In this document: in pieces, positions 1-64,000 of the stretch
Numbering within the stretch: the stretch's first letter is position 1
Layout of the letters: each line of letters begins with the position of its first letter
Assembly: GCF_004210375.1 (NCBI RefSeq)
Contig: NC_134830.1
Location: forward strand, 42,847,094 to 42,911,093
Length of the DNA: 64,000 nucleotides
Direction of reading: 5' to 3'
DNA from: Tachypleus tridentatus
Lineage: Eukaryota; Arthropoda; Merostomata; Xiphosura; Limulidae
Program-made: the position numbers and the translations under genes
The notes under the pieces: generated by a model
What the model saw: the letters and a program-made list of their open reading frames with translations, nothing else
What the model was told of the DNA's origin: nothing
Databases searched by the model: none

Positions 1-99
1 TAATTAGTTATTTGTTTAGTCTTCACAGAACTTACATAAATAACTCAGTGTATTAAAAAACACTAAAAAAGTTTAATATAGAACCCAATCTGGAAATTG
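1..99. repeat. Direct repeat, copy 1
   Basis: These 99 bases recur at 4490-4588 in the same orientation with one mismatch seen by eye (position 19, g versus a). The copy touches the window edge, so it may extend further left. Immediately after it (100-129) lies what looks like the 3' tail of a SINE-A, ending in AAAC units. The repeat does not resemble a coding sequence. It could be the end of a larger mobile element or a segmental duplication. Confidence 0.85.
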
Positions 100-129
100 C
101 AGCTTTTCGCGAATTTAAAAACAAACAAA

Positions 130-1873
130 CTAATTCTTAAATCGAAAGCTGAAATACTATCATCCTATTCTTAAACCAAGTTTGTAGCATTTATTCTAAC
201 TATCTAGCTTATTAAGTCTATAATCTCCAAGTATAATATTAAACGAATATCAAGGGGAAAGGTCCATGAGTATTTACAAGTATGCTGTTGAACTGGAGTG
301 CTGTATTTCATTTCTTCAACCATCTCTTTCTCGAAAATAGATGTTGATTTTGTGATGGGGTGGATGCTTGAGTTCTTTTAACTAGTGAGACTTTGTCATT
401 TTCAACTCATCGTTTTATTGTTATTCTAATGCTATTAAAATGACATTTTGGGATAAAAGGTTCTTTTTCGTAACCACAACCCTTACTTTATAAAAAAGAC
501 CCGATTGATTTGAGGCATGAGTTTTGGACCTTGCATCTTCCTGACACGCTGATGTGCAATTTTTCTGCTGAAGAGTGAAGACGTTCTTCTTCGAAATGTG
601 GTGTTCATTTCTATGTAGTCAAGCTGTTTAGATATCGACTCTTAGAAATAGCGGTTACTTCTCTCCCTATTCACCAATCACGTTTCGAAAGAATGTTACA
701 GGACCTGCCAGGGTAATTCGATTTTATGTGCAGAGCAGATTTTCCTATCTTATGTAACTGTAGCTTCAGAGCTTACTCTAATAGTAGTTTAATTTCTAAT
801 GTATGTGCTATTCATTGTTATATTTTTAATTTGTGAGCATAAACCATATCTTTTGTCACCTCGTTGCTCAGTGGCAGACCTGATGTTATTACAACTGAAT
901 AATCTTTATTTGTCTGATATGTCATCCATTTTTATTTACGAAAGACTCTGATTTGTATACTAATTCGAAAAAGAAACCCAGCAATAATTCCAAAACTATT
1001 CCAGTGTAAAAGTTAAATTTATAAAATAACAAATATTATTTAGATACCTGTGACTTTAGACATAAAGAAACTCTTAAATATTATGTAATATATTTTTTTA
1101 ATAATATTCCACAATCCTTGAAAATAAATCATCGATATTTTCAAACAGTCAATGAAAATAGTTTCACTTACAGATTTCCATTACAAAGTTGAAATGTTGC
1201 TTTGGTAAAAATAGTTGTTATATTCCATTCTAGATAGCAACACTATAGAGTTCACTATTTCGAGATTGTTAAAAAATATGAATTTTGTTAAAAAGTAAAG
1301 ATTTTTACCAATAATATCAAAAGCAGATCAATGTTTTAATGGTCTCCCTCGATTATTGAACAGTACGTTTGAAGGTTTATAACACTAGAATTAGGGGCTT
1401 GATTAGCGCAGCGTTTACAAAGCAGCGTTGTCTACTCAGAAGCTAAACGTTAAAGCAATACAATATTTAACAGTGGAACTAAACCTTTTCAAATTGTACC
1501 TGATTTTATCTTATTAAACTGTAACATATTTATTTGTTAAGATCGAAATTCGTGGTTGAAAGTGGTCAAGCATTTTTTTCTGGACAATAAATAATAATTC
1601 ATATATCTTGATTTCATTTTTAATTCTATTAAACAATACTTTACCATGACAATGAATTTCATTTGAAGTCAGTTAGGCTATATAATGTTGTTATTGAGAA
1701 CTGGGGTGATGAGGAATATTACACTATGTAACCAAATTTATACTTTTTCTTGTTCCTGGGCAGAAAGAGTTATTTTCCAATTGCTTATGCCTAAAGTAAA
1801 TAGAAACGACCTATTTTTCTCTTCAAACTTTGCTTTCGTGACCTGGGTAATGAAATTTTCAAATTTACCCATT
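130..1873. other. Intergenic, no gene seen
   Basis: This AT-rich stretch has frequent stops in all frames. I see no exon-like segment, no tandem array and no clear SINE copy in it. Confidence 0.6.
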
Positions 1874-1995
1874 TTCCAGAACATTCCAGGTAGAGTCAGT
1901 GCTGAGTAGCTAATAGAGAATTTTCTCGAACTTACATGAATGTTCAAGAACTTTCTAGAATGTTGTAGAACTAACGAGAATTTTCTAGAATTTTC
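1874..1995 (+). promoter_or_regulatory. Heat-shock element (HSE) array
   Basis: Heat-shock factor trimers bind alternating nGAAn/nTTCn pentamers. A first site at 1874-1886 has three perfect units (TTC, GAA, TTC). From 1918 to 1995 a GAA starts exactly every 10 bases (1918, 1928, 1938, 1948, 1958, 1968, 1978, 1988). In-phase TTC triplets lie between them at 1923, 1943, 1953, 1983 and 1993; only 1933, 1963 and 1973 are imperfect. That makes 13 perfect units of 16 in 78 bp. A TATA box follows 8 bp later. The arrangement is that of a strongly heat-inducible promoter and is far beyond chance. The factor binding itself is inferred. Confidence 0.85.
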
Positions 1996-2003
1996 CATAG
2001 TAA

Positions 2004-2011
2004 TATATATA
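2004..2011 (+). promoter_or_regulatory. TATA box of HSE promoter
   Basis: TATATATA lies directly downstream of the HSE array and about 70 bp upstream of the first readable codons of the gene-family copy at 2076. A transcription start around 2034-2041 would be expected from normal TATA spacing. No initiator could be assigned with certainty. Confidence 0.6.
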
Positions 2012-2075
2012 CAGGGGCTTACCACTCACCACTTTAGTTTAGTTCTAGCTGCCTAAGTGAACACATAGACCTACC

Positions 2076-2949
2076 TGATTTTATCAGAGATGGTATCAAG
2101 AAATTGAAAAAATTCTCCAGACGGATCTACTATGTATTTGGCCAATTTATCAAGACAAGTGCGAAAAAGTACTCCGTGACAACATCTGCTAAAACGTGTG
2201 AAGCCTACAAGACATATTTCGGCATGTCTTTCGGGGATTAAGACAAACCCTTGGCACCTTATTTTACCAGCGAGCACTACAAAAAAAAAAAAACTTTAGA
2301 AGGTAAGACGAACAACTTTTGCTTGCATGAATAGTAATATTTTATATTATACAAATTTTAGACCTTTTAAAATTTAAATATCTTTTAATTTTTTTAAATT
2401 TCCAAAAGTATAGAAAAAATATCACATAAAATATTTTGCATGAACTTCTTATACATTAGTTGTGGATGAAATAAAGTTATTCTTCATAATAACAATTTTA
2501 TTTTGCTCTTTTGCATGATAGTACAGGGGAAAGAGAGCCATGAAGTTTGCTATTCCATTCAAGCAATTGCTACTTCTGCATGGTGGACCCTTCCAAACGT
2601 CGAGCTGGCAAGAATGCATTATACAAGAATGCAGCTATTATGTATCCGGACCTTTCGTCATTCATCGCCCCAGTGCCAAATTGCCCTGAGCTCCCTGTAC
2701 CCACTCCGCCAGAGAAAAAGCAGACGTCCTCAAAAGAGAGCTGCAAATCAGAAGAGGAGGGAGACGTTGAAGATCCAGATTACAATTTCAGAGGTGCAGA
2801 AATCCATACTACCCCAACCAAAGAGACCTCAATGACTTGATTAGAGATCTTGGTCTAACAAGGTCGAATGTCGAGAGTATATATGGGAGCTGATACGTGA
2901 AAGTGATTTACATTACAGTCCCAAATTTCGAAAAACTACTCACTTCTAA
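2076..2949 (+). pseudogene. Internally deleted multicopy ORF family, copy 1
   Basis: This is a copy of a high-copy protein family that I know from many arthropod and cnidarian genomes as an uncharacterised, transposon-associated protein. The N-terminal part reads from 2076 (FIRDGIKKLKKFSRRIYYVF) through FGMSFGD, then a stop, then DKPLAPYFTSEH. A likely intron has its donor at 2303 (GAAG/GTAAGA) and acceptor at 2525-2526 (TACAG). The second part carries a CYFCMVDPSKRR motif, an acidic Ser/Glu stretch and RDLNDLIRDLGL. At about 2870 the reading jumps to the family's C-terminal end (YIWELIRESDLHY, then RKTTHF and a stop at 2947). The whole middle of the protein, several hundred residues in other copies, is missing. 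Frameshifts and the internal stop make this copy non-functional as a protein. An unbroken 68-codon reading frame on the opposite strand (2071-2277) is its antisense shadow. Confidence 0.75.
2303..2526 (+). other. Putative intron in family copy 1
   Basis: A GTAAGA donor at 2303 and a TACAG acceptor ending at 2526 separate the two halves of the N-terminal region. The interval is AT-rich and non-coding. An intron argues against this copy being a processed retrocopy. The frame across the junction is off by one, which fits decay. Confidence 0.5.
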
Positions 2950-3481
2950 ACATTTTTGTATAACTTTAGTATAAATACATATAAATCTTGGTTCATATAT
3001 TGTTTTATTCAGACCTTATGTAAATGAACATGTGCAAATTTTCCCGTTTTTACATAGAAAATAGATTAATTTCTAAATTTCATTATCCAATCCGCAAAAA
3101 CAATGTTTGAAGGGAATAATGGCCATTTTCTGTCCAGGAACAAAATTTGTGTTACATGCTGTTATTTTCAAAGAAATACTGAATAGGTTTGTGTTCAGAT
3201 GTTGCTTTTATATGAAAACCTGTGCTCTTCTCACGAAGTCCCGAAGTATCGAAGTTCCGTTTTATCCGATGAGCTCTCAAAGTTTCTTCTGAGCCACTAC
3301 ACTAATATAGCAAGATTCTCTTGCGCTTTATACATCTTGAATTACAGTAAATTCAAGTAACAAAGCTTTATACGCATATGCTTGCATTTGTTTTACAAAA
3401 TGTGGCCACTTAAAGCGTATTTTATTAATATAATATATTTAACCGTGCGCGTAATAAGTTTGATTATTTGAAATTAAACTT
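2950..3481. other. Downstream flank, no gene seen
   Basis: AT-rich flank after the stop codon of the family copy. An AATAAA-type signal was not clearly found close by. I see no other feature before the SINE at 3482. Confidence 0.5.
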
Positions 3482-3652
3482 GTTTGTTTGTTTTGAATTT
3501 CGCGCAAAGCTACTCAAGACTAGATGGAAGGTAGCTAGTCATTACCACCCACCGACAATTCTTACCAACAAATAGTGGGATTGATCGTCACATAATAACG
3601 CCCCCACGAATGAAAGGGTGAGCATGTTTGGTGTGACGGGGGTTGCAAAGAA
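3482..3652 (-). mobile_element. SINE-A, internally deleted
   Basis: On the minus strand this reads as a SINE-A with AAAC tail (3482-3494), the 3' segment, the central body with the CCCACTATTCGTTGGTAA-type block, and the start of the body. The tRNA-like head is lost and a block of the 3' half is missing. Confidence 0.8.
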
Positions 3653-3965
3653 GACAAAAAAAAATTGGTTGACAAGTTGGTTGCAATCATATCCATTAGG
3701 ATGTTTAAAGTTACAAAACATTTGTATGAGAAAAATTGCATCGTTTTACAAATGTTTCTTGTGGAGAATATATTTTTTATGTAATTAATACGTTGTCACA
3801 AAATTAACATAAATTTAAAACGAAAGCAACAAGTGAAAATTTTGTTATTAATTGATGTAAGTGCATCACTTTGAAAACTGTGAACTTCGTTGAATGTATA
3901 ACAAGAAACAATAAATGCAACGTAATTGCCTGGTTTTGTTGTTAAAGAAAACCCGTGTTTTAAAA
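3653..3965. other. Spacer between SINEs
   Basis: AT-rich sequence with no recognisable feature. Confidence 0.5.
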
Positions 3966-4222
3966 GGTTTTGTTTATTTGTTTGATTTGAATTTCGCGCA
4001 AAGCTACTCGAGGACTATCTGCGCTAGTCGTCCCTAATTTTGCAGTGTAAGACTAGAGGGAGGGCAGCTAGTCATCACCACCCACCGCCAATTCTTGGGC
4101 TACTCTTTTACCAACGAATAGTGGGATTGACCGTAACATTATAACGCCTCCATGGCTGAAAGGGCGAGCATGTTTGATGCGACCGGATTTCGAACCGACG
4201 ACCTTCAGATTACGAGTTTTAA
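3966..4222 (-). mobile_element. SINE-A
   Basis: Near full-length copy on the minus strand: oligo-T/TTTG tail, CGCGCAAAGCTACTCGAGG 3' block, central body, and most of the tRNA-like head with a B-box-like segment. Confidence 0.9.
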
Positions 4223-4489
4223 AAGAGCTCACTTAATTAAGTCATAATTAAAGACAGTTTTATACTGGTCCTTTTGTAAAACTAATATCGAATCGATCTT
4301 CTTACTGGAAAAGTGATCAAAACATTTCTTACTGTGATTTTATTTTACCTTTACTTCCCAAAAACAAGTTTTGGAATTATAAGTAATGCCACTTTCAAAC
4401 CAAACGTTTAAATATCGAACGTGAATTAAATATTTTAAATGCAATAAATTTTAGTTATTATAATTAATCTCAGTTTTCCATCGACTCTG

Positions 4490-4588
4490 TAATTAGTTAT
4501 TTGTTTAATCTTCACAGAACTTACATAAATAACTCAGTGTATTAAAAAACACTAAAAAAGTTTAATATAGAACCCAATCTGGAAATTG
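4490..4588. repeat. Direct repeat, copy 2
   Basis: Second copy of the 99-base repeat found at 1-99, same orientation, 4489 bp apart. Unlike copy 1 it is not followed by a SINE tail. That suggests the SINE fragment beside copy 1 is a later event, or that the repeat boundary is real at this point. Confidence 0.85.
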
Positions 4589-4635
4589 ACTCTTGTGTGA
4601 AAGTATTTCTATAGTGCGTATATAAGACAGCACCT

Positions 4636-4757
4636 TGAAGTTAAGCACAAAGCAACACAATGGACTATCTGTGCTCTGCCCACCAGGGGTATCGAAGCCC
4701 GAGTGCTAACGTTGGAAGTCCACAGACATGTAGTTGTGCCAGCGAGTGGGGAGCTTT
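4636..4757 (-). mobile_element. SINE-C
   Basis: Minus-strand copy of the ~120-bp tRNA-derived SINE-C, with the AAGCACAAAGC 3' block and a degenerate B box. Imperfect flanking repeats of about 26 bp (near 4607-4632 and 4778-4803, both containing ATATAAGA) look like an old target-site duplication. Confidence 0.8.
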
Positions 4758-9100: not shown

Positions 9101-12100
9101 CTTCCTCTAAGCGGCAAGTCGAATATTTATATTGCTACAATTGGGTTTCGATACCCGTGGTAGGCACAGCACAGGTAATCCGTTGTGTAACTTTGCGTTT
9201 AACTACGGACAAACAAAATAATTGCAAATAGACAAAAAGCAGTATAAACGACTTGCTTTATATCCACAAAGCAGAGAACTTTATTTGTTAAGGTAGAAAA
9301 CGTTGCTTTACAAATGAAAACAATATTAACCAAACTGTTGGTTGACAGCAATAAAATAAGGGATGTGTATCCACTAACCATATTAACCAGAAGAAAACGT
9401 GGGCAGAGAAAAGACGTTAACCATAAATAATAACTAAACCAGAACGAACAACAACTTTTGAGTAACTAAAATAAGATATTGAAAAGACATCGACTAGACT
9501 AAGAAAAAAAGAAAAACAATAAGTTATTGATTGTCTCAAGCATATTAAAAAGAGGAACTTTATTTACCAAGATAGAACTACAAACATTTGACCAACTAAA
9601 TTGAAACACGTCAGATGTTTTAGAAATTCAATAAAACCTTAACTAACCAATAAAAATTTGCCACGCAATTGTGTAGGACCAGGGTGTAACAAACTGTAAA
9701 CGAAGAAAAAAGAGAATGGGATAAAAAAGAAACAAAACTTAAATTATCAAAATAATATACAAGAGAAACGTTGCGTATCCAATACCCACTCAACAGCTCA
9801 AAACCTTCACCATCCAATACAGAATAGTCAAAATAAACATTTAACCATTAGACACCAATGAATTTCGAATGTAAATTTTCTCATCAAAACAGGATAGTAA
9901 CCAATTGAGAGTAGCGAAAATAAAATTGTTTAATCGAAAATAAATATTAGAATAGCTGGGATACGAAACATGGGAAACATATGTTTAACAAAACAATAAG
10001 CAATAAATAGTGAAATATTTGAGCATATACTAAAATTATTGTTAGCAAATATAATGTTACCAAACAAGAATATGTTGAAACACAGATAACATAACAATAA
10101 GAAAATGTTCGATATGACAATAAATTTTTAACCCCCATAGTTTGATAACCAAAATCTGTGACACATACATGATAGCCTCCCCAGTGACTCTCACCGCTAG
10201 AAACAGGGCTTTGATACCCGTGATGGACAGAGCAAAGATAACCCATTGTGTAGCTTTGTACTTAATTCTAAATAAACAAACAAAAACATATGTGATAAAA
10301 AGCAGAAAATGTTAGTCATCCAAAACATAATAAGCTAAAAACTGTTCACAAATAAAAATAATTGTTTAATATTTTAAAACACATCGGAACAGGGAGAAAA
10401 CAATTATCAGATATATCAGAGCAATATCTACACGTACATATGAACAAGAGAAATAACTAGAAAGTGTTTGTCAACAGAATAAAAAAACACAAAAGTTGTT
10501 GCACTGCAACAGATATCAGTAAAAGTCTTTCAGTTCCAAATATTTAGCGATTTTATACTGTTTTTAATGTCTTTGTTCAGTCCTTAAACACTATAATTGA
10601 AAACATTTTGATCAACGAAACTCGCCTTCAAGATCTCATCAGTACAACCATGAAATGTTAGTTTGTGTGAAGTACCTTCAGATATTCATGATTTATTATC
10701 ATAGTTTGTTCTGTGTGAAGTGCCTTAAGATATTCATGGTTTATTATCATAGTTTGTTCTGTGTGAAGTGCCTTAAGATATTCATGATTTATTATCATAG
10801 TTTGTCCTGTGTGAAGTACCTTAAGATATTCATGGTTTATTATCATAGTTTGTTCTGTGTGAAGTGCCTTAAGATATTCATGGTTTATTATCATAGTTTG
10901 TTCTGTGTGAAGTACCTTCAGATATTCATGGTTTATTACTACAGTTTTACCCTTATTTTGTTTATAACTCAGCCATTTAGAAACTATTAATTGCCCCTGT
11001 AACATACATTATTTGATAATTTTAAAGAGATCATAAAAAATTGTATAGATAAAAAACTACTTCCATTAAGGATTTTCAATGATGTAAACAGTTTTGATCT
11101 TTAATTTCTTTTTTACATAATCTCTATCTTAGTGTTCAGAAACTTTTATAGAAATTAAAATTTCACTTAGAAAAGAAGTAAACAACACAAGCCTGAGACG
11201 GTTTTATTGTCTTAAAAGTTTCACGTATTCTACAGTAATTCCTGTACGCTGAATTCGAAAATGACATCCATTTTTGTTCATCGTGTATAGATTGTTCACA
11301 AAACCTCATATTCACTTTTACATTAGCGAATCATTTTCGTTGAAATCTGGTCATATTTTGTTATGCTTAAAATGTTGACAACCATTGGCTATAGATTTCT
11401 CTAGACCAATCGATCGCTCTAGAACCCAAACGTAACAAACACAATAATAACAAAATTTCATTGTGGTAAACGAAATATTTATTTGATTTAAGTAAGAGTT
11501 TTCATTCCAATTTATAAGACAAATCCTTACGTGATATGAAAAAATTAATATCATTTTTGAAATATGCGTAGCTGAATTATGGAAATTCGGTAATTAAAAT
11601 CAAAACAACTGTTATGATGTTTAAATTCGCAGGGCTGTGTTATCCTTTTTCAGAATTTAATTTTAAACGACTTACTTTGTATAAAATTTCAACAACTGTG
11701 GATTAATAATCTGAGTCCATAATTATAACAATAATGTTTGTAAATAATCATGGAATTAGTTTTTGAAGAAAACTACTATCTTAAGCTAGATATTTTTAAT
11801 AGTTTAAAACTCATATAAAACATATTACTATTTATTAATTATCAATATATATATACGTTTTCATATACATTTTATTATCTACATCTATACATTTTTCAGA
11901 ATAATGACGTCATTTACGTAAGACACTGCTGTTGTGTTTTCGGCGTAGATGAAACCAACATAACTAATTTTTGTATTGACAGTAAGGTTGGGGTAATCTA
12001 ACTTGATAGATGTCATGGTTAGTAGTTTACACAATTTAAGTGTAATAATTAATATATTTTGAAAAATAAACGGATGTTAATTGCAAACTATTTCTATCTT

Positions 12101-15100: not shown

Positions 15101-18100
15101 CCGTTTCAAAAACCAAACATTATTTTTTTTTTACTTTTCACTGTAGTTGTTGGACTTGTTACTTAGGCATATTTATAAATACAATAGTACTGTCTGTTGC
15201 ATGTCCTTGTAACTACTTTGCAAAGTATCGATAGATCTTTATCAAAATTACTGTGTACGTTCATTAGATTCAAGGAAAAATACATACAAGTATTCAGTTT
15301 TCATATGACGTATTGCGGCTTTTATCAGTGTGTTTACATTTTTTACCACTATCCCACCTCATATGAATGAATCTTTACCAAACTTGGCATGAAAGTTCGT
15401 ACGGTCCAAGAGGAGATACATACAAATGCTCTATTTTACATTTCTTGTTCTGTAGTTTTTGTAAGCGATTTTTTACAATTCGATATAAACTTTTCATGTC
15501 CCAAAATAACGTTTAATTTATCATGAATATACGTAATTTCAGTCCAGGAGATGGGTAGTCCAGCTAGTGTATAGTTAAGGTATAAATAAATATTGTTATC
15601 TTGTGTCAAACCATTGTTGATTTGTTCTTTGCGGTTTCATGTTATTCGTTCATATAGTGATATTAAGTTTCATTTTCGGTTTGAGAATCTTCAAGAATAT
15701 GTTCTGAAAAATAAAGTATTCGATTCAAAATTTATAGAATGATTTAGTATTAATTATGTATCTCTTATTCTGTTTTAGTTTCGTAGCAATCAACCACCAA
15801 TATTTCGAGAATTGGTGTTGAAATTATGTAAATAACCTCAAGTTGTCGTTTAATCTGTCAAATGACTGGTCAATTTGTAGACCGTTGCTAATAAAATATA
15901 TATGGGATTTTCACTTTAAATTTTATCATAAGTTATTTCCACGAAACACTCAACGACTCTTTCTCATAGAACCCCCCAGTATCATGATGGTATGTCTGCG
16001 GACTTACAACGCTAAAATCCGAGTTTTGATACCCAGACAAAGCACAGATAGCCCATTGTGTTTCTTTGCACTTAACTTCAAATAAACAAGCAAAATAAAA
16101 AAATTCTCATAGGAGATAAAACTAAAACTACTTATAATACAAGAAGCGTGCTAAGATAACCCATGATCGTTACAACGAAGTAGAGTTATATTTATTATGA
16201 TTACAATGCTCAACAATTTATGCTTTTATGTACCAAATACGCGTCTTTCAGAAGGCTTGTTACTTACTTTCTTCAAATTCTATTAAATTATGTTAGTTTA
16301 CGTTTTACAGAAATGTTTTGTAATGTAGAAAGAGAATTCTAGTTACTTTGGTGGAAGTTACAACAAATAACTGTTCATATCTTTCTAATATAAAGTTACA
16401 ATAAAATTCAGCCAATGTTTAATTATCTCGCTGGGAAAAGGCAGAACTATTATACATGTTTCGTAAAACACAACTATCAGAATGGAAGTACTTCGTTTCA
16501 AATTTTGTTAAATTCTCCAATATGGTAAATCAAAGGACAGCATCTTTATAAACATATATAATATCCCAGTAGATCTTTCTTGAAAATAAGGACTCTCAAA
16601 TAGACGCATCCTTTTTCCGGCGAACATTTGTATTCAACAATTTAATAATATTTCGGACTAAAAGGCTTTTATGTTTAAGATTTATAATTGATATTGGCAT
16701 TTTCAAGCTAATTAACGTCCAATACAACGTATGGGCTGAGCAGCCGGATCAAAGATCCTTAGGTTTAGGATTAACCCTATATGTTTAACATGGAATTATT
16801 AAACCATAAGTAGGGCAGTCAGTATGAAAATTGATTGCCGAACAGATAGTTCGATTGTTTTTCCTTGGATGTACATATTTAAAGTTGATAGTGAGTTTAC
16901 ATTATCCAGGTTTCAAGCAGTTTTCAGTAAACATATAATTGAAGGAACATTTTAATCGTAATAATTAAAGACTTTAGAGCAACTTATTACAGCTACAGCT
17001 TTTGCATTTTTTTTTCAGGAAAGCATATAAGAACTAACGTAATACGTCACATTTCTTGTTACTGAGATATATGTATATATCACATGTTGTGGTAATATAA
17101 CAAAAAGCATTAATTAACTTCAGAACTGAAAAATACGTAAAGTGTTAAGAATGAACGTGATAAGTTATTACTGTAATAACTTTGTTCGTATAACAACATG
17201 AATATTAGGCCTATGACCTTTTCAAACACCTCATTCTTAATTTAGTTCGTGTTACATATTATAATTCATCTCGGACGAACCTTCAATTTATTACAACTTG
17301 AAGTGGCCTAAAACTGAGTAAGATAGTTCTTTGCATTTAGAAGTTAATTTAATGTTGATGTAAAACACATTTATGATATTTGACAGCAAGATTGATACAC
17401 ACAATTGTATGATATTTGACAGCAAGATTGATACACACAATTGTATGATGTTTGACAGCAAGATTGATACACACAATTGTATGATATTTGACAGCAAGAT
17501 TGATACACACAATTTTATGATATTTGACAGCAAGATTAATACACACAATTGTATGATGTTTGACAGCAAGATTGATACACACAATTTTATGATATTTGAC
17601 AGCAAGATTGATACACACAATTGTATGATATTTGACAGCAAGATTGATACACACAATTGTATGATATTTGACAGCAAGATTGATACACACAATTGTATGA
17701 TACTTGCCAACAAGATTGATACACACAATTTTCTTTCTTGATACAAATATAATTTGTTATTCAAACAATAATACAATTAGAGCCCGCGACCCTCGGATTA
17801 CGAGTCGAGCGCCCTAACCACCTGTTCATGCCGAATCCGATGGTATTTTGTATATTCGAAGATAAGAATAGGTAATACATTAACCATTAGCTGCCTTCTT
17901 TCTAGTCTTACACTGCTAAATTAGGGACGGCTGGCGCAGATAGCTCTCGTGTATCTTTGCGCAAAATTCAAAAAACAAATAAACAATCAAAATACTATAA
18001 CAATATGTAAACTTTAAAAAATAACTTAGTTATGCTCTATCTTACATACTTAGTTGCGTGTGTAGCTATGATCATACAAAGCGCTTATATTGTAATTTAT

Positions 18101-21100
18101 CTAGAGATTTAGAACAAGGAATATAAAATGATTACGAAATAAAACTGAACGCAATAACTAGTTCTGAAGTATTCAGTAGATACGACAGTTGTTTATAATT
18201 AGGAATAAAACTAACATTGAAAAAAGCTTAGGAAAACTATAGTTCAAACTAAAGTACACATATGTATCTCAGAACGGTTGGAAAACCTTATAAGAAAACA
18301 CAACATTCCAGTAAACATCAAATTTATTTAGAAAGCAGGTACAAAACTAAAATCCATACTATATAAAAATTACACTGACAAACACAACACCAACATTATA
18401 TATAAAATACAATGTAACAACTGCCACGATTTCTATACTGGAAAAACAAGCAGAAAAATGGAAACTAGATTCAAAGAACAAAAAAAAACACCTTCACACA
18501 TACTTAAACACTGCAAATCAAACAAACACAACATAACCGTAGAAAACACCCAGATACTAAGTAAGGAAACAAGCATAAACAAACGTAAAATCAAAGAAGC
18601 CCCACTTATACAACAACTCAAACCCAAATTAAACCAATATAAAGGAACACCCTTATACCTATATTAATTATTAACCTAACATCCACCTGCAACGCCCCCT
18701 ACAATCTCATACCAGTTTATACTCTCATCCCTAAGACATGTGTATGTCAACGGTCACATTCAAACTCTCTTCTTTCTTAACCTTAAGATGACCTAAGAAG
18801 GTCGAAACGTTGTTCTATCCTTATCAATAAAATTGTTAATACTCATACCAGCTGTTCTTAGATACATTTTTATTTCAAATGAGTTTCTTGTCATCAAGAA
18901 TAAACTACACATAATTTTGTAGTTCGGGATGATTATCTTAAACTAAAAAAACTCAGTTTTTCTTTCTTTTGGCAAGCCGTCAATGAACCGTATAGTATTT
19001 GTACTGTGAGATACTTGTACTTGCCAATAATACGTAAATGTATTTTAATTTCTGAAAATAATTCTTTAGGGTCTCGTGAATGTTAGGCTTATTTACAGTA
19101 ACAGTGGGGGTCACATGGATAAAGTTTACTCGTTACTACAGTGTAATATTACTGTCGCATGTCGTAATGCTCGTCTTCTTCCACTGGTATATGTTTGAGT
19201 TTTTCGTGAATTCCTGACCTGACATGAGTTTATCTTGATGTGGGCGTCTAGATTCATCTCACGAATAGTGGGTGGTAACCATTACGTGACATGCATAAAG
19301 CAGGTGGCTTGGATTCATTAATCCGCATGTCCAATTATATTCTCACTTCAATGTACTCTACTCATGATACCACGATATTGTTGTGGCACGACACATACTT
19401 TATCTCACTAGAAACAACTTATGCAACACGAGGTCTTTAGGAAGGTAAATTAACCAAAATAAAAACAATGCTCAGAATCCCTAACTCTAATTATCACAAG
19501 CATATGGTTGGGGCAGGGAAATGCTTCTATGTTGGTCAATGACATAACAAAACGTTCGTCAAAGACTTTTAATTTTTCTGTTTCTCTTCATAACGTCCTT
19601 CGTGTTTCTTTCGTGTTATTTTGTTATCTATAATATCACATTAATTTGTCTCTTTTATTTATTGTTAACCACTAAGCTATACAATGGGCTATACGTGCTG
19701 TGCTCACCATAGGGATCGAAACTTGTTTTCTAGTGTAATAACTCTGCAGACTTAACATTGTACTACTGTAAAAGGGGCATATTTTATTAAGAAATTATTA
19801 ACGACCGAATAATTTCGATATAGGCCCGACATGGCCAGGTGGTTAGGGCGCTTGACTCACAATATGAGGGTCACGGGTTGGAATCCCCTTCACACCAAAC
19901 ATGCTCGCCCTTTCAGCCGTGTGGGCATTATAATGTTACGATAAGTCCCGTATTCTTTGATATAACAGTAGCCCAAAGAGTAGTTGGCCTAGTCTTTCAC
20001 TGATAAATTAGGAACGGCTAACACACATAGCCCTCGAGTAGCTTTGCAGGAAATTTTAAAAAACCGCCACTATGAAATCGTGAACTATGGAATAAATGCT
20101 ATAAATTGCACTTGGTATGAATAAAGAGTGAGGCGTGCCGGGAGATAATAGTTTTTATATCGGTTTCACTTCTTACGAGTGAAATGTTTGACAGAATTAT
20201 GTTCTAGAACAGAGTGTGTTGAAAATCTTTATGAACAAAGTTTTTTTGTAGTCTTCAATGTGAAAACAAAAATAATATGCATGTATAATTTGTACAATCT
20301 GATTAACAGAATGTCTAAACTAATATTCAAGCATATTGTTTTTCACATTTCTTATTACGCTATCTTATAAATTAGAATCTACTGTTAAAAGATAAGATCT
20401 TCAGTATAATGAAGCGTAAAGTTCTAACGTCTAAAATTCATATCAGTTCCAACTGTTGTCTAAAAATGTTCAAATTCATTAACAGCTAATAGCTGCTACA
20501 AACTTCCTGTTTAGTACAAAAACTTAGCATTTACCTTTTTCATGTTAATCGACAGAAGTTTACTATAAAGGATAACGTTTCGAAGGAAAGGAAATCCTTT
20601 ATGATAAACTATACCGCACTATCTATGGCAGCAGTTTGACTATTAAGGGTTGACTGACATTTTGATAACATTACGATTCTCTGAGGTTTGACTCATATTT
20701 TTCTGTTTTAAGCGTAAAAATGATTTCAACTGATATTTCAGTAACATCAACGAGTTAAGATACTATGTCTGATTCATTTTTTCTATAAAACAGCGGTCAA
20801 CATTAAATTATAATCGAAATTATTCGTTATCAAATTATTGAGATATTAATTTGAACGATATTTTTATAATATCATATCATCAGGTTACAATGTCTGCTAT
20901 AAATAGCATGTATTTTATGGTTCATTATACGTCTAATAAAACGATTCATTTAGGTAATTTCATTCAAATATATATTTCACTAATTTCATTTTTTATGGTG
21001 TCTGTATCGTGCATTTTTAAACAAAAGAGAAATAAAACACAGAGGGAAAGCCAGACAGACTCTTCCATCTCAATTAGTAAAATAAAAAAAAAAGTCTCGT

Positions 21101-36100: not shown

Positions 36101-39100
36101 TATAACGCCCCACGGCTGAAAGGGCGAACATGTTTGGTGTGACAGGGACTTGATGCAGTCTTGGAATGAGGGAATAATTCCAGCAAGTTCACGCCTCCTA
36201 TATCCTATTTACAATGATGTTAACCAGATGTGAAACACTTTCACAAAAACGTTTTGAAATATAATCCTGAATATAATTAAATAGAAATATATTGAACTGT
36301 ATTTATGGAATTGTAAAAATCGGTTGGTTTTATTGTCACAAAATAGCTTTAAAATCGTTCATTACATCTTTTAATAAAAGTAGTTTTATTTGCTGTCATT
36401 TGATTTTTAATTGTACGTTTTTCTTTAATTTAGCAATAATACCAAGCCTTGTACTGGACCTTCAAAGATGTACATATCATGCAATGTTCAGGTAAGATGT
36501 TTTTTTTTATTGACTGTCTTATTTCGCCCAAAAATATATGATCTTCGTCTAATGTTGTGTTGTTATTGTTCCCTTACCACATAATAAAACATCTCAATAG
36601 AAGTGGTGCATAATATAAAACAAATACCCATTAATTTTCTCGCAAATAAATCAGCTCAACCTTCTGGAAGCATTTGGCAATACCTTTGAAGTGATCAAAA
36701 TCTTGACATGGAAGTAATTTAGCGATAATTTTATTGCCCCCCACAAATATTATAAACACAAAAATAAGTAGGCATGCTAAAATTCATGTAAAGAGATTCT
36801 TAATTCGTCGTTATTAGTATCAGTTAAAATTACCTGAAACAACTGTTTTACAATTGAGTTATAGTTATTTTGTAATTAATTTGATTTAGAAGAATTTTCA
36901 CAGAATTTTTACTTATTTTAAAGGAGATTTCAAGTACAAGCTTATAAACTAAGACGATGCAAAGAGGACCTCTAATACCTAGCTTATATGCTTCAACACT
37001 TTAAGTTACTAATCTACTACATTTTGTTATCCTTTTATCAACTTTGGTAACTAATCTACTGTATCTTCTATTGCACAACTCTTTTGAAAGACTTGGATAT
37101 CCATTACTGACAATTGGTGTCAAGGGTTAGAACGTAGCGGATAAAAGAATGTCCAATTTGTCATGTTCTATAAAGTTCATTTTAAGAAGTTATATATCTT
37201 AGTGGACAATGTGTACTCATCATATTCTGCATCCTAGATTCCTTTAGTTTTACTTCACTTTTACAAGTCTTACAATTTTCGTAGTTATTTCAGAAGAAGT
37301 ACAGTTAGTTAGTCCAAAGGGAATATATTTAATTTTTGTTCCGTGTTGAAGTTTTAGCAATTACTCGAATAAAAAAAATGATTAGGCAAGTTGCTCATGA
37401 ATGTTAAGAGAAACTGCTCACATTAAGAAAGAACAGTTGAAAATGTTTTTCATGGTATCTCAGATCAATGGTGTTTCTCCCGTCTTCCACTGGTATTGTG
37501 ATAAGTCTACGGATTAGCAACACTAAAACCAGAGGTTCGATTCCCCTCAGTGGACTCAGCCGATAACCCGATGTGGCTTTACTATAAGAAAGTACACATT
37601 TACATACACCCACCTCCTTCAATTACTGTTTCTATTTATATTTTCGAGCACATTTTAGCGGGTGTAAATTATTATAAATCCACATGTATATGACGTAAGA
37701 GTGCATAAATTAATTTTATATACTTCTGAACCCTAATATACAACTTATAACTCTTTAAATATATTATCAAGGCAAATCAAGAATGTCTGCGGGTTTTGAA
37801 TTTGTTTGTTTGTTTTGGAATTTCGCATAAAGCTACTCGAGGGCTATCTGTGCTAGCCGTCCCTAATTTAGCAGTGTAAGACTAGAGGGAAGGCAGCTAG
37901 TCATCACCACCCACCGCCAACTCTTGGGCTACTCTTTTACCAAGGAATAGTGGGATTGACCGTCACATTATACACCCCCACGGCTGGGAGGGCGAGCATG
38001 TTTAGCGCGACGTGGGCGCGAACCCGCGACCCTCGGATTACGAGTCGCACGCCTCACGCGCTTGGCCATGACGGGTTTTGAATGCAAACCACTTGACTGT
38101 TGTTAGGATGACGTTTTTATACCCATGGATGCCACACACGATGACCATGATGTTATCATAACGCATCACATAAGTGTTGTGTTATTTTCCACGTTATTAA
38201 ATTGATCTATACAATGAGTTTCACAATAACGAGCGCGGTCAAGTAGCGTATTTGACCGTAGATTTAAGGTTCCATGTTCGCTCCTTGCCACTGCCATTGA
38301 AAAATAAAAAACATGCTCCATTATTTGGGGTGCATTATAAGAGTGTCTTCAAATCCAACTATTCGAATTAGAGTAGCTCATGAGTTGATGGTAGGTGTTG
38401 TTGTTTAGCTATCTCACCTCTGGTCTTTCGCTTCAGAAGTGCAGACGAGCACGTTGGTAAGAACTTTAACAAATCACAACATAGTATCAAATCGATTTAA
38501 GTCACGCGTACAAAATCAGGACACAAAGAGAACACAAATAAGAGCACCAAATCTCAAGAGACCAACACAAATCTACAAAACATATGAACAATAACTCAAA
38601 TCATACAAAACATATGCAACAATAACTCAAATCATACAAAACATATGCAACAATAACTCAAATCATACAAAACATATGAACAATAACTCAAATCATACAA
38701 AACATATGAACAATAACTCAAATCATACAAAACATATGAACAATAACTCAAATCATACAAAACATATGAACAATAACTCAAATCATACAAAACATATGAA
38801 CAATAACTCAAATCATACAAAACATATGAACAATAACTCAAATCATACGAAGAACACACGAACGCTCAAACACAACAAACTTAAACATAAAGTGAAACAT
38901 TAAGCAAAATAACATAAATATAACTAATGAAATTCTGGCTCAATGGAGAATACCCTAAACCCACGACCCTTTCGACCCTTTTAGGTCATCTTCAGGAAGG
39001 TCAAACGTTGTTCTCTCTTCATCAATAAAAGTGTTAACACCCATACCAGCCGTTCTGAGATACATTTCTATTTCAAGTAGGTTTCTCCTCATTAAGGAGG

Positions 39101-42100
39101 TATACATCGTCTGCGTTGTATTAAGTAAGGATTGAATCTACAGCATCTCTGTTTTAACAAATTTTTCAGAACAGTATGAGTTTTAACATGACAGCCTGCT
39201 TTGAACATTTTAGGTAAAACAGATATGATTACCTACAAAATACATCTTCTGCCTTCATGTTTCCAGCGCCTTCAATGGGACAACGGTAAATCTGCGGGTA
39301 AGATCCGGGCTTCAATTCCATGTAGTGGACACAGCGTAAAGCTTAATGTGTCTTTGGGCAAAACAGTGCCCAGCATGGCCAAGTGGTTAGGGCGCTCGCC
39401 TCGCAATCCAAGAGTCGCGGGTTCGAATCCCCGTCACACCAAACATGCTCACTCTTTCAGCCGTGGGGGCGTTATAACGTTACGGTCAATCTTTCTATTC
39501 GTTGGTAAAAGAGTAGCCCAAGAGTTGGCGATGGGTTGTGATGGCTGACTGCTAAATTAGGAATGGCTAGCGCAGTTGTGTAGCTTTGTACTCAATATAA
39601 ACACCTTTTCGGAACAATGGTGATTGAAAGGTCAAAGTGTTTGGATGTTACAGGTTTAACAGCTTATTTCAAAGAGCAGATACGTGGATTTTAGTTTTGC
39701 TAGTGATATGTGTTAACTTCTATTTGGTAAAATTACAAATGAATTTGTTACTTATGCAAATGTATCTTGGGTGATTAAGTCTTTAATTAAATTGCAGTAT
39801 ACGAGTTAAGTTAAAAACAATTAGGTTAACATTATATAAATTGCGGCCTGGCATGACCTAGCGCGTAAGGCGTGCGACTCGTAATCCGAGGGTCGCGGGT
39901 TCGCGCCCGCGTCGCGCCAAACATGCTCGCCCTCCCAGCCGTGGGGGCGTTATAATGTGACGGTCAATCCCACTATTCGTTGGTAAAAGAGTAGCCCAAG
40001 AGTTGGCGGCGGGATCGGGTGGTGATGACTAGCTGCCTTCCCTCTAGTCTTACACTGCTAAATTAGGGACGGCTCGGTGCAGTGGGCTAACAACCTGCTC
40101 ACTTAAATACTTGTTGAAGAATCCGCAAGCGATTGCGGCCATATGTTTCTAGATGGAATTTAATGGTGATGACTAACTAACTAACTGTATAAATTGTAAA
40201 AACAATCATACCAACATAATTTATTTTAACTTGATACGTGCGATTGGAATTACAACAATTTTTTTTTTCTGGTTCTTTAGAAATGTCCGGACAGATCGTG
40301 GGGTTTTCGAGAACATCAGTGTGCAAGCTTCGATAACCTCGCTTATAATGGAAAATATTATACTTGGGAGCCGTTTTACGACCGTAAGTGTAATCGCAAT
40401 TATTTAACTGGTTAAATACGAATTCACATGCAATCCAACCAATTTCGAGTCATTTTAGTTGAATAAAATTTATTGTTGAAAAATAAAAACATGTATAGAC
40501 ATGTCCTAAGGAGATTTATTATGAAATATTAGACAGAAGAATGAAACATAAAAATAAAATGTTTGACAAGTAATTATACATACAGAATAATAGAACGATA
40601 GCTGTATAATAATCCAAGTAACTAAAAGGCATCTGTAATGTTTGAAACAGCAATGTTTGAAAGCAGCTAGATACATAACACAGGCCTGCAAATTTAAACT
40701 TCATAAAAGTTGATTTGGTTTTAATAACGGATATTCTACAAATTAGAATAGTATCTATACGAACAACCTGTATAATTCAGATACGTAGATTTCGAAAATA
40801 ATATTCTTCTTTTTATATCGCGTAAGGATTCTTTTACAAATTGAGAAGAAAAATTCTTACTTCGATCAAATTACTATTTCGTTTGCCACAAAGAACTTAT
40901 TTTATTATTTTGTTTGTCAACAAAAATACAAACCAACTGAAGAAAATGGAAGAACATTGATGTCAAACAAATATGTATCCTCATTCATCCTGAATTTTTG
41001 TGAAATCTTCAGGAAACACCAAGGACCAAAATTACAAAAATATTTTCAATAAAATGTATGATAAATTTAAATAATTGGGTTGTAATACGAGCTTGAACGT
41101 TTATTTATTTCACTCACATGTTGACTATTTCCCTGAAAACCTCGGTACCGTCAGTGAAGAACATGGGGAAAGGTTTCATCAAGATATTAGGGAAATGTAA
41201 ATGATGCGTCTTTTAATCTCAAAGCAACGTGTTGTGGTCTTTCTTTCATGTATTGCGTATAGAACATCTCGTTTCACTGAGCAGCAGCAATCAGTCTTCA
41301 TGCTGTTCTTACACCATCCCTGATACAACATTTACATTTCCCTAATATCTTGATGAAACCTTTCCCCATGTTCTTCACTGACGGTACCGAGGTTTTCAGG
41401 GAAATAGTCAACATGTGAGTGAAATAAATAAACGTTCAAGCTCGTATTACAACCCAATTATTTAAATTTATCATACATTTTATTGAAAATAGTTTTGTAA
41501 TTTTGGTCCTTGGTGTTTCCTGAACATTTGTCAATAACATTTTTAAAGGTAATCCACGCTTCTTCTTCAACTTTTTTCGTTATCCTTTCGAATGTTCATC
41601 TGAATTCAATTTCCTAATCTAAGGCCCAACAAAAATATTTTCTTTAAGTTTTGTTTCTGATAGAGCTTGGAATTTTCCACATAGAGACTCGAAACAGTCG
41701 CCATCTTTGTCTAAGGCCTTTACAAACTGCTTCATCAAGCTCAGATTTTTGTAAAGTAGAAGTACTAGTACTGTTTTTACATCAACCAAGCTTTCACGTT
41801 CAATGTTTTTCGATCTTGGTATCAAGCTGTCTATGTTTACTATTGCTTTCTTATTCGGTGTTGATTTTGCGCTCTTCTGTCTTATTGACACCAATAAAAC
41901 AACATGGAAACTTTGTATAACCAGATTGTTGACTCGCCAAAATACAAAGGACTATTAACTTTTCACAATGTAGCCATTCATGTTCTTTGTATTCGATCGT
42001 ATTAAGAATAAGTTCGATATTTTAACATCTTTCTTTCAAGTGAACTGAATGAGCAATAGGAACAGTTGCATGTATGTTACTATTTGTAACGGAGGACAAC

Positions 42101-45100
42101 CTTTCAGACTTCTTTTGCAAGAATTAATGAACAATCGCCACTCACTTCATTCATAGGCTACAGCTTTTTGTTTGTTTGTTTGTTTGCTTGGAATTAAGCA
42201 CAAAGCTACACAATAGGCTATCTTTGCTCTGCCCATCACAGGTGTCGAAACCAAGTTTCTGGCGAATGAGTCCACAGATAAACCATTGTACCGCTAGGAG
42301 CAGACTGCAGCTTCTGGCATTTGTATTAATTCAGCAATGTTGTTGAAATAAATCAGTGAACCTTCTTGTGAAAAGTTTGGTATAAACTTTTTCTCACGAT
42401 TTCTGTATCAGTAAAATGATTTCCCTGGGGAAAGTAAGTTCTTACACCGAAGTCTGGACCCCCAAATCTCTCAAGAATCATTTGGAAGACCAAAATCTTT
42501 TACAAAATCACCAAATGTTTCAGGTTGAAAACGATTCCTATAATTATTTCTATTGACATCAGATTCATGATCAGATGAAACTGTATCAATAGCTTCTTTC
42601 CAGTGTAGTAGGTGCGGGTACATCAGGTCTTATAGCAGATTGAAGGTTTGGACAAAAAACTTACCTTTTATTTCGAATTTCATAGTCTTGCACGCACAAC
42701 ATACAGGATTTACTGTAGAACATGTAAATATTTCAAGACAATAAGACCATCGTAGGCCTATGTAATCAAACATAAATAGCGGTAATGGAAAGATGGTTTG
42801 AATGGTTTTAAATGTTTTAAATAATTTTATTAAGATTTATTTTTTGTTCTAGCCTCTAATCCGTGTGAACTGAACTGCAAGCGAAAAGGTGAAACCTCCT
42901 CACATTACCGTCTTGCTAATAAAGTTATAAATGGTACTCCTTGTAACAACGAATCCAAAGGTGTATGCGTAGATGGAGAATGTTTGATGGTAAGTAGATA
43001 TATGATAGGATAACAAATCAATGATATTACAATTATATGAAACACTCTACAACAAGTATTTTGACTGAAGTCTATGGAATCGATGTTCAATCAACTGATC
43101 AGACCAATATTTAATTTTCTTACATTGTGCATAAACTACCAAAGGCAGATGATACAATAACATTAGGAAAGGGAGCCAAAATATTATCAAAACAGTTAAC
43201 TATGCGTATGTCTTTCTTCTCGCAGAATTACACCCAATATCTTAGAATAAACTGAAACTTCTTGATCTCGTGATTGTCAAAATATTATTTAACAGAAAAT
43301 TCATAATGGTATTTCATTTCAGGAGTTAGTAAATACATATAATCTCGAATACATCCAATGCCTATCTTTTTAACTAAATCATAGATTAGTAGCTCTGATA
43401 TATATTTTTTACAAATAACATAGAATGCTAATGTTTCTCGGTTGATTTTAAATTGCGAAGATTAAGAAGATACTTCAAGAAATGTTTACGTGTTTGGTTT
43501 ATTTAAAGTTAACTCTTTGTCCGCATCGGGATTTTGATCTAGGAGACCTGGGAGGGTCAGTTTCTATTTAACTATTCAATCCCACTATTCGTTGGTACAA
43601 GAGTAGCCCAAGAGTTGGCGGTGGGTGGTGATGACTAGCTGCCTTCCCTCTAGTCCTACATTGCTAAATTAGGGACGGCTCGGTGCAGTGGGCTAACAGC
43701 CTACTCACTTAAATACTTGTTAAAGAATCCGCAAGCGATTGCGGCCCTATGTTCCTAGATGGAATCTAATGGTGATAACTAACTAACTAACTAATCTGTT
43801 AAAATATTATTAATTTACATAGGAGTTTTGGCTAGAATATTTTAAATTTAAAATATCTGCATGTAATATTCGTATATTAGAAGTAAAGGCTTAAAACATG
43901 TGGCATTTGTATTTGTACAACAAAGCATTGAGAAATTCTAAATACCAATATCTGAAAGCTTAATACGTTAATACATATATTGCATTCGGGTACTGAAACG
44001 TTGTGCAAGCATTCATATATATAAAGTTTATACATTTAATTGGTATAAAATATAAATGCCTTTTGCGTTACACAGAACAATATTGAAATGTATAACACAA
44101 ACAATATTTTCATACCAAAACGTTGTGACAAGTTTATAATGTTACGATATATGGCGTGTGTAAACTAAAGACATGGCCTCATGGTTTGAAGGCCTGACTC
44201 GCAATCTGATGGTTGCGGGTTCGAAGTTTCATCACCGAACATTTTCGTCCTTTTAGCCACTGGGGCGTTAATGAGTATAGATCAATCTCATTATTCGTTG
44301 GTAAAAAAAAAAGTAGCCCAAGAATTAACGGTGGATGGTTTTGACTAGTTTCTCTCTGTCTTGTCTATCTCTGCTAAATTAGGATTGGTTAGAGTAGATA
44401 GCCTTGATATAGTTTTGCGTAAAATTCAAACCAAACTGTAAATTCGAACTCTGTAGAAATTTTAATTCATGTAATTACTTGAGGATAAATACTTAATTAA
44501 TATAAGACTGTGGCAAACTTATTTTACGTTTTGTTCAGTGTATCAGTTATTAAATCTCACAGTTTTACATTATATTATAGTATCTCCACTCAAGGTTGCA
44601 TACTATAAAACACAATAAAATTATTGCTGTTGTTGTTTCTCTTCAGTGTTTATTAGTATGCAAATAGTATGTAAATCTGATAGTTTTACGTTATATTCTA
44701 GTATCTCCACTCAAGTTTGCATACTATTAAACACAAGAATCAAAGTTGCATACTATTAAACACAAGAATCAAGGTTGCATACTGTTAAACACAAGAATCA
44801 AGGTTGCATACTATTAAACACAAGAATCAAGGTTGCATACTGTTAAACACAATAATCAAGGTTGCATACTGTTAAACACAAGAATCAAGGTTGCATACTA
44901 TTAAACAACAAAGTTGCATACTATTAAACACAAGAATCAAGGTTGCATACTGTTAAACACAAGAATCAAGGTTGCATACTATTAAACACAAGAATCAAAG
45001 TTGCATACTATTAAACACAAGAATCAAGGTTGCATACTATTAAACACAAGAATTAAGGTTGCATACTATTAAACACAATAATCAAAGTTGCATACTATTA

Positions 45101-48100
45101 AACAGAAGAATCAAGGTTAAATACTATTAAACACAAAATCAAGATTGCATACTGTTAAACACTAGAAAGTTATTGCTATTCTTGTTTTTCACATGATGAG
45201 TCGCTACACCCAAGGGGTTACGAGCAGGTTTCCAGGGGAGCCACTATCTGTCTCCGCGAGTTTATATTTCTTTTTAGTCCTCAAAGTGTCTGAGATGTAT
45301 ACATATCATCTTTGTTATGAACTATGACGAACTATATTTTCACCCTTGTTAGAGGTAATGGTGGTGGGGGGGGATCGCGTCGAACAAAATCCGGGGTCGT
45401 CTGACAGATTCGGCTAAGAAGCACTGTTCTACACTGATGACTTGTTGAGTTTTGTATACGAAGACTTTATGACTTTGTTGCAGGTTGGATGTGACATAAC
45501 TGAGGGTTGGAAGGAGCAGTGTGGAATATGTTATTGGAATGGCAATGGTTGTGGCTTGGTTGAAGGAGTTTTCAACACAGTTTACCTACCAAAAGGTAAG
45601 ACCCGTCGTGTATTTACCTTGAAAAGACTGAAGTACTTTGATACTTCTATTCGATTCATATATTAACTTTAGGAAACTTATCAAATTATGTCTTTGACAC
45701 CTTAAAAATAGTTATTTTGACCTTAAAACATCTCTCTATCTCTTTCGCTTGTTGCTTTTCGACAATAAATAACACATACATTGGATACATTATAAGATCC
45801 TATTTATGTTTCTTGAGGTTAGTAAAACATTTAGTGCAACTAAACGTTATTTTCACTCTAAACTGTGACACTTCAAACCTATTTTTATAATATTCTAATG
45901 GTGTGTTGAGTAATTTGTAACGTCATGTTTCTTTGTTGTTAATTACAAAGCTATACAATAGCCTATCTTTGATATATGTAACGCAGGGATCGAATCACTA
46001 ATTTTAGCGCTATAACCCTAAAGTTACACCATCGGAGTCTGGATAGGAGACTGTAGCTGGTTGGAGTTTTCTAGGTTCCGTTATCATGAAAGATTGTAGA
46101 AATTATTATATTATATTGATACACTGAAAGGTTCGATTATCATACAATTTTCTGTGTCGTAATATGTAAGCATATTTCATTTTGGAACATTATGATTTGA
46201 GTAAACTGTGGTTATTTTTTGCAGGTTACAACAAGGTTATTCAGATCCCAGAAGGGACTATAAATATTAAAATATCTGAAACAGGCTTATCGCCGAACTA
46301 TCTGGGTGAGCACAGTAGGGTGGTTTTATACATCAGTAAATGATTACTGTAGAAAATTAAAGAAATATAATAGTCTTTTTTTAAAAATAATTTTGTGAGA
46401 CAGCAAAATGTATGCTACTCACTGGTCTGTTTAAACTGAACATGAGACTTCAAATAAGTTATTTAAAAAGTAATTTACATTGATTTTGTGTTTAATTATG
46501 TGCGCAGTTTCTCTTATGATGGCCGTAAGTGTTTATAATTATATACGTTCATTATGAGAGCCAATAATTTGTTATAAAATTAATCGGTTGAGAAAGCAGT
46601 TGTCCTTGTCGAAAGTATAGTGGAGCGCCATTAAGCCGCGGACCAGTAAACCGCGAAATCGCTTAAGCCGCTGTAGCAAGTCTTGTCCCAAAATTTTTGA
46701 TGTATTAAATCTACTACCTGGCTTTTTAAAGTTTCTCACATTCTCATTGTCTTTATAACTTCAAGGGATATTTAAAAAGGATTTGCTTTAATTTGGGAAA
46801 TAAATAAAATATATTACAATAGAAATCGACCGTTAATCTACCTTATCCGCTCTCTATGTCAGCTTTATGGAGGTCGCCATTGTTACCGAATCACACCTTT
46901 CCATACATTAAAGTTAATCCGCGGTAAATCCGTGAAAAAAGTGATCAATAATTAAAGTATTATTTTTAATTCCATAATTCGATATAATGATCACGCAATG
47001 GCCCGGATGAGGCTCCTCGGCGGAGCTGTTGGCAACTTCGGCTTTTCAGTCACAAAGGTTTAAGCCGCGGTTAAGCAGGTTGACCCCCAAATACCGCGGC
47101 TTAACGGCGCTCCACTGTAGCTTACACACATCTGAAGTATTTCTAATGGGCAGCAGTGGTTTTGAATAAAAGTCAAGGTTTCAGTTACTCGAGGTTTTAA
47201 AGTATCTGGTGTATCTGTATACGTTTAGTGAACTTATGTTTTATCATATTTATACTTATTAAGGCAAGAAGCTTGTGTCCATTCAAAACAGAAGTATTAA
47301 AATACACACTTCTCTCTAGCTTGTCTATCTCCTTGTTATGAATGTAGTATTTTCTTATTGTTATCGTAAAGATTTTTCAATAATTTGTATATTTTAAAAT
47401 CGCACACCCAGTTTTTGTTGTCGTGTCCTATACGTACATACCATGAATATAATTATGGGCCATATCTTATTTTTCTCATATTATTACTCTAGCCGTACGA
47501 AATTTGAATGGACACTACTATCTGAACGGCAATTGGCGAATAAATACTCCAGGAAACTATGCTATAGGAGGAACAAGTTTTCGTTACACAAGGAGGTCAG
47601 ATGGCCTCTCAAGTGTTGAGAATCTGGAAGCTTCAGGTCCAACGACAGAACCTCTTGTCATTATGGTGAGTGATAGGCCTTATACATTTTCTTAGCCAGC
47701 AGTTTTACTAGCATTTAACAAAGAAGAAATAGACCTCTTTACAATTCTTTAATCAACGGTTTTACTGACATACAATAAAATCAGAACTGAAGAGCTTTTA
47801 CATTTCCTTAGATAACAGGTTTACTAGCATTAAGTCCGGCAAGACCAGGTGGTTAAGGCACTCGACTCGTCATCCGAGGGTTGTGGGTTTGAATTCCCTT
47901 CACACCAAACGTGCTCGCCCTTTCAGCCGTTGGGGCGTCATAATGTTACGGTCAATCCCACTATTCATTGGTAAAAGAGTAGCCCAACAGTTGGTGGTGG
48001 GTAGTGTTGACTACTTTCCTTCCCTCTAGTCTTACACTGCTAAATTAGGGACGGCTAGCGCAGATAGCCCTCGTGTAGCTTTGCGTGAAATTCAAAATAA

Positions 48101-63602: not shown

Positions 63603-64000
63603 GTGGGTTGGAAATTATTTTATCAAATATTTATTCAAAATAATATCGATGCTTTGTTATATTCAATCAGTCATGCTAAAGTTCTACTTCATTCTTCTAC
63701 TATAAAAGTATTAGAACGTCTACTGACGATAACCCAGTTGATAAATCTCTATATCTAAGAACGTTTACAGTATAAATAGTTTTCAACATACGTAAGATCA
63801 AACACATTCAGTTAAGTTCTGAAACATTTCTTTATAATTTAGACAAGTTACATATTATAATAAGAGTTATCATATGTAACCTGTTTTTCATTCGTAATAT
63901 TATAATGTTCAGTGCAAGTTAAAGGCATTGCATAGACATTAAATTATACCAAATGTTGTAGCTTAATTATTGCTGTCCATTTAAGCTTAATTTGTTTTAA
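63603..64000. other. Start of intron 15
   Basis: AT-rich intron running off the window. No further exon seen. Confidence 0.6.

Follow-up and report, generated by a model that had tools for sequence, protein, structure and literature searches.

A heat-shock-element array and TATA box inside the inverted repeats of a probable, decayed RAG1/Transib-type transposon of Tachypleus tridentatus

The stretch analysed here, called the window, is 64,000 nucleotides of the genome of Tachypleus tridentatus (assembly GCF_004210375.1, contig NC_134830.1, positions 42,847,094 to 42,911,093 of the forward strand). At 1722-3161 it holds an element of 1,440 bp, and an array of heat-shock elements (HSEs), a TATA box and the remnant of a transposase gene all lie between the ends of this element. 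The transposase is of one structural type with RAG1, the enzyme that rearranges antibody genes. Taking the evidence together, we consider it likely that decay and internal deletion have left here the remains of a cut-and-paste transposon of the CMCT clade (CACTA/EnSpm-Mirage-Chapaev-Transib), in which array, TATA box and leader formed the promoter of the transposase gene and made the element mobilisable by stress. The very long heat-shock switch in front of the enzyme gene of this dead copy suggests that heat stress once activated the element.

The heat-shock-element array and the ends of the element

A preliminary description of this DNA had claimed that GAA recurs eight times every 10 bases (1918-1990) with TTC between, 13 of 16 pentamers being perfect. 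This is borne out: the array is made of 16 five-base units in one register with 44 of the 48 core bases intact, GAA stands at 1918, 1928 and so on to 1988 (all eight of the 10-bp steps), and five of the eight gaps hold a perfect in-phase TTC. When the whole window was shuffled 100 times under a dinucleotide-Markov model, the top 16-unit score was 5, attained in 31 of the 100 shuffles, against the 13 perfect units observed. Across the array G, A and A are each conserved in 8 of 8 positions and T, T and C in 7, 6 and 7 of 8, whereas the spacer bases are more variable. An origin of the array by chance was rejected on the shuffle scores and on this per-base conservation. Since GAA and TTC are conserved and the spacers are freer, the constraint is on GAA/TTC and not that of a plain 10-bp tandem repeat, and to judge from its letters the array has the look expected of one that heat shock factor (HSF) would bind. 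Nine perfect three-unit HSEs occur in the window, seven within 1874-1995 and the others starting at 8430 and 15685. The separate three-unit site described at 1874-1886 is present and perfect, with the small correction that it is out of the 5-bp register of the main array. TATATATA begins at 2004, where the TATA box had been placed. An HSF-responsive promoter has at least three contiguous alternating nGAAn units close to a TATA box; here there are 16 units, 13 of them perfect, and the TATA box begins 7 bp beyond the last pentamer. A scan of viral contigs with a 7-unit HSE pattern matched nine stretches (L001-L009).

The array has decayed to a degree compatible with the decay of the coding part, from which 41.5 intact core bases would be expected compared with the 44 seen (P 0.20, a rough estimate from 28 positions). 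Its preservation is not significantly above this expectation, and nothing points to selection acting on it today. While the element was active, the array was probably no less complete than now.

The ends of the element, which we add to the preliminary description, were defined by a scan of positions 1-4700 for inverted repeats, which gave the arms 1802-1876/3057-3131 and 1750-1766/3127-3143. When the repeats are extended outward, the sequence of the left end from 1722 is CACTATGTAAC.CAAATTT (also written CACTATGTAAC..TTGTTCCTGG) and that of the right end, reversed, from 3161 is CAGCATGTAACACAAATTT. TTA stands in the same orientation beside both ends; two random trimers of the window match with a probability of 0.022, and this is one insertion. 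The end-anchored alignment of left and right scores 106, which none of 5,000 shuffles attained (maximum 86). This score was attained by 32 of 20,000 random anchored pairs from the window, probably because of its many inverted copies of a short interspersed nuclear element (SINE). Local alignment of the ends is less striking, with its score attained by 0.65% of 1,987 random placements. The inner end motif TTGTTCCTGGNCAGAAA is exact at the two ends only; a third place (0.74 expected) has 3 mismatches. If up to 3 mismatches are allowed, the outermost end motif alone occurs at 11 places of the window against 12.66 expected, which is not above chance. Because the array and the TATA box lie inside the inverted repeats they probably moved with the element, the array being known from the one copy examined.

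Table 1. Features of the element and of the second copy of its transposase gene, in window coordinates
Feature	Position	Strand	Basis or remark
Left target-site duplication, TTA	1719..1721	none	directly outside left terminus; equals TTA at 3162-3164
Left terminal/subterminal inverted repeat, starts CACTATGTAAC	1722..1876	+	inverted-repeat scan and end-anchored alignment
Separate perfect three-unit HSE, TTC-GAA-TTC	1874..1886	none	
HSE array, 16 units, 13 perfect	1917..1996	+	
TATA box, TATATATA	2004..2011	+	sequence match and reading
Exon 1 of transposase gene	2090..2302	+	start codon 2090; likely donor AG/GTAAGA at 2303; stops and frameshifts
Exon 2, N-terminal zinc-binding region and linker	2525..2876	+	family positions 90 to 192 of 559; frameshifted
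Right terminal/subterminal inverted repeat, finishing ..GTTACATGCTG	3057..3161	-	inverted-repeat scan and end-anchored alignment
Right target-site duplication, TTA	3162..3164	none	
Second copy, same transposase family, 5'-truncated and frameshifted	41218..42656	-	family positions about 154 to 557

The transposase gene and its family

The preliminary description had placed the N-terminus of a multicopy, uncharacterised protein family downstream of the array, and it is real. The sequence from the start codon resembles the N-terminus of intact relatives, and a profile made from 48 of these (alignment A1) recognises in the element its positions 13-60, 90-164 and up to 192 of 559, which follow one another in order and lie in three frames. 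In exon 1 a single frame, between about 2125 and 2277, covers positions 13-60, and hmmsearch matched 90-164 (independent E-value 5.6e-11) and 126-192 (3.2e-5) in exon 2. The start codon and the donor were read by eye against intact relatives, as were the start of exon 2, which is approximate, and the A+T-rich intron between the exons. The open part of exon 2 matched no Pfam family. The gene remnant stops before the catalytic domain, and the element, as its sequence reads, is a dead, internally deleted copy that retains the promoter, the N-terminal zinc region and both ends.

The family is of the RAG1/Transib type (CMCT), a class that it can be given from its intact relatives and not from the window copy. 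Over about 360 residues the relatives have a RAG1/Transib-type fold (PDB 6pqx, HzTransib; 5zdz, RAG1), at a sequence identity of 11-13% to these structures. The signature D293, C312-x2-C315, H469-x4-H474, E488 is present in 48 of 48 aligned members, all intact relatives, the window element being without this region. The order and most spacings of these catalytic and zinc residues agree with HzTransib and RAG1. In the databases the family counts 121 proteins in one count and 2,595 in another; its named members are labelled 'uncharacterized' or 'hypothetical protein' at source, and those of the 2,595 that were listed are without a Pfam domain.

In the excerpts of Kojima (2025; PMC12730594) on which we draw, the CMCT clade comprises EnSpm/CACTA, Mirage, Chapaev, Transib, Plavaka, ESTA, Lanisha and RAG1, and is defined by an RNase-H-like DDE domain with C(2)C and H(3-4)H between the second D and the E, 5'-CA..TG-3' termini and a target-site duplication (TSD) of 2-5 bp. 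The DDE domain is found in the intact relatives, the termini are CACTATG .. CATGCTG in the one copy, and the TSD is TTA/TTA in the one insertion, with the chance of a match given above. The left CAC and the 3-bp TTA fit the CAC..GTG ends and 3-bp TSD of EnSpm/CACTA, and the right end is CTG, which in this single decayed copy may reflect either mutation or ancestry. No CACTA family was among the 25 families listed by the Pfam scan of the alignment. Transib elements make a TSD of 5 bp; the fold is that of RAG1/Transib, and at this one insertion the flanking 5-mers, TATTA and TTATT, differ and 3 bp agree. No link at the level of sequence was found from the family to a named CMCT lineage.

The same Pfam scan gave weak matches to zf-AD for 30 of the 48 members (the best at 5.3e-4, under the curated cut-off in the member shown). 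The N-terminus (residues 1-90 of the member P0004) has a CxxC...CxxC region that is weakly zf-AD-like and is possibly a DNA-binding or dimerisation part. The other 24 Pfam families matched one to three members each and were taken as chance, among them RAG1_imp_bd (one member, E 0.23). A sequence search of solved structures gave nothing for the member P0002 up to E 1, and a match to the alignment at E 1.9 was taken as chance; a fold search of BFVD gave 0 matches at E up to 0.001. Pattern searches with the alignment matched 14 stretches of viral contigs and 54 of genome contigs, with 0 relatives in either.

The second copy of the family in the window was matched by the profile in two frames from about 42584 down to 41218 (E 7.3e-61 and 2.4e-47), its upper end being extended by eye, and a SINE-like insert splits it. 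HSE scans of the window found no array near this copy, which is useless as a test of the array because its 5' part is missing. Pfam has no family for its 110-amino-acid piece, and viral contigs gave 30 pattern stretches and 0 relatives for the 110-amino-acid fragment. Besides an internal inverted duplication of 212 bp, an inverted-repeat scan of 40000-44000 found three weak pairs (20-31 nt), and nothing among these was accepted as transposon ends. In that duplication the 3' part of the copy is repeated at 97% identity with 119 bp between the arms (40995-41206/41326-41537), and it could form a hairpin RNA.

Alternative explanations, proposed mechanism and other features of the window

In plant CACTA elements (En/Spm) the transposase binds subterminal repeats near the ends, and the array could be such repeats and not a promoter. 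The CA..TG ends of the element, its place in the clade of CACTA and the position of the array 195-275 bp from the left end would agree with this. However, the best 6-unit HSE score is 5 at the left end and 2 at the right, the conserved bases are those of the HSF site nGAAnnTTCn with freer spacers, and a TATA box and a start codon come after the array. Transposase-binding repeats are not favoured because the right end is without an array, and we regard them as quite unlikely. The array might also have been gained later by this copy alone, through local tandem expansion or through gene conversion involving an hsp promoter of the host; it would then be uninformative on the family. We hold this to be unlikely: a single copy was examined, and the 20-bp period reported by Tandem Repeats Finder (3.7 copies, 74% matches) is compatible with local expansion, but the compatible decay of array and gene means that the array is not obviously younger, and what follows it is the transposase family, no window-wide search for hsp coding sequence having been made. 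The gene might instead belong to the host, in a family of unknown function with a heat-shock promoter, which the uninformative names of the family members and the intron-like interruption (seen by eye) might suggest; this is highly improbable given the RAG1/Transib-type fold, the DDE/zinc signature in every aligned member, the inverted repeats and TSD that flank the window copy, the two degraded copies within 64 kb, and the 2,595 database proteins.

The heat-promoter interpretation of the preliminary description thus stands in part. As the promoter of a multicopy mobile-gene family, placed inside inverted repeats, the array and TATA box are supported, but the window copy is dead and makes no working product because of its stops, frameshifts and missing catalytic domain. 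The order of HSE array, TATA box, leader and transposase start inside transposon ends is the layout of a heat-shock gene. We infer HSF binding, heat induction, transposition in stress and dispersal of the array. In the simplest mechanism, under heat or another protein-damaging stress, host HSF trimers would fill the array side by side and fire the transposase gene in the manner of hsp70, and intact copies would thereby be mobilised during stress. Deleted copies such as this one, which have lost the catalytic domain but kept promoter and both ends, could be mobilised in trans, taking a strong HSF site along. More tentatively, we put forward as a serious possibility, though not the probable one, that an animal RAG1-like lineage is licensed by host HSF, its transposase being expressed as a heat-shock gene, so that stress triggers RAG-like cutting and transposition and deleted derivatives seed 16-unit HSE arrays throughout the genome, where these would be ready-made heat-shock promoters. 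It is a long-standing question whether stress drives transposition directly or merely loosens silencing. If the proposal is true, a RAG1-clade transposase under an hsp70-like promoter would provide a direct mechanism of stress transposition for animals. It would parallel the nematode Helitrons by convergence and allow a test of whether heat-shock responses are rewired by elements of this kind. The family of 2,595 database proteins is also assigned a likely function, that of a DDE transposase of the RAG1 clade.

Other features were noted in the window. A 99-bp direct repeat, 99% identical (1-99 and 4490-4588, 4,489 bp apart, the first copy starting at the window start), encloses the transposon and SINE copies. 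The SINE-like repeat AATTTCGCGCAAAGCTACTC..., which we take to be a horseshoe-crab repeat, has numerous copies in both orientations at 3480-4217 and many other places. Two pieces at 59418-59891 and 60116-60400 on the minus strand (E 5.8e-12 and 1.4e-9) match the Pfam family DDE_Tnp_1_7, a piggyBac-type transposase. At 18332-18664 (+) an open reading frame matches GIY-YIG weakly (E 0.008, short of the curated cut-off) and is possibly a fragment of a Penelope-like element. Open frames at 55834-56160 and 63333-63755 (+) have thrombospondin type 1 (TSP1_ADAMTS) domains, and the right part of the window is probably within an ADAMTS-like host gene. Tandem arrays lie at 17365-17730 (36-bp units), 44711-45167 (29), 38564-38848 (30) and 10657-10938 (48). 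The window gave no Rfam match at gathering scores and nothing in a tRNA scan.

Comparison with known systems

HzTransib and RAG1 share with the family the fold, the order of the catalytic and zinc residues and most of the distances between these; they differ in the low sequence identity, in the 5-bp TSD of Transib compared with 3 bp here, and in that the N-terminal zinc region of the family is only weakly zf-AD-like. ONSEN has an HSE in its own promoter, as the window element does, but is a plant long terminal repeat (LTR) retrotransposon. As excerpted from PMC5056178, heat shock factors of the host bind this HSE of the Arabidopsis element, which makes expression heat-inducible.

The CMCT clade shares with the element its type of DDE transposase, termini and TSD, whereas the element ends CAC..CTG rather than CAC..GTG, and the excerpts of PMC12730594 make no mention of an HSE-array promoter for the clade. 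CNEST of Cryptococcus neoformans, a CMC-supergroup transposon whose clade includes unclassified animal transposases, is alike in that its mobilisation is raised by heat: in the sections of PMC12810828 (PLoS Genet 2026) used here, its insertions in three isolates are 22 to 83 times more frequent at 37°C compared with 30°C. It is about 7.2 kb long with 33-bp terminal inverted repeats beginning CACGG and a 2-bp TA TSD, different from the 3-bp TTA here; putative HSEs are given in those sections for the LTR elements TCN3 and TCN12 and not for CNEST. Similar in arrangement to what we propose is Helitron1_CE of Caenorhabditis elegans, a DNA transposon with its own transposase gene under a multi-HSE promoter. 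According to the parts of Garrigues et al. (2019; PMC6927752) cited here, the promoter region of its Rep-helicase gene has 14 HSEs and gives HSF-1-dependent heat induction, and non-autonomous copies carry HSEs about the genome. Helitron1_CE is a rolling-circle Rep-helicase element, whereas the window element is a cut-and-paste DDE transposon of the RAG1 clade with inverted repeats, known from sequence alone. In the open-licence literature, with subscription papers and Repbase outside its scope, no HSE-array promoter was found reported for a CMCT or RAG1-like transposon. The comparison suggests that, while HSF-driven transposons are already known, a RAG1-clade transposase under such a promoter is new within the literature covered.
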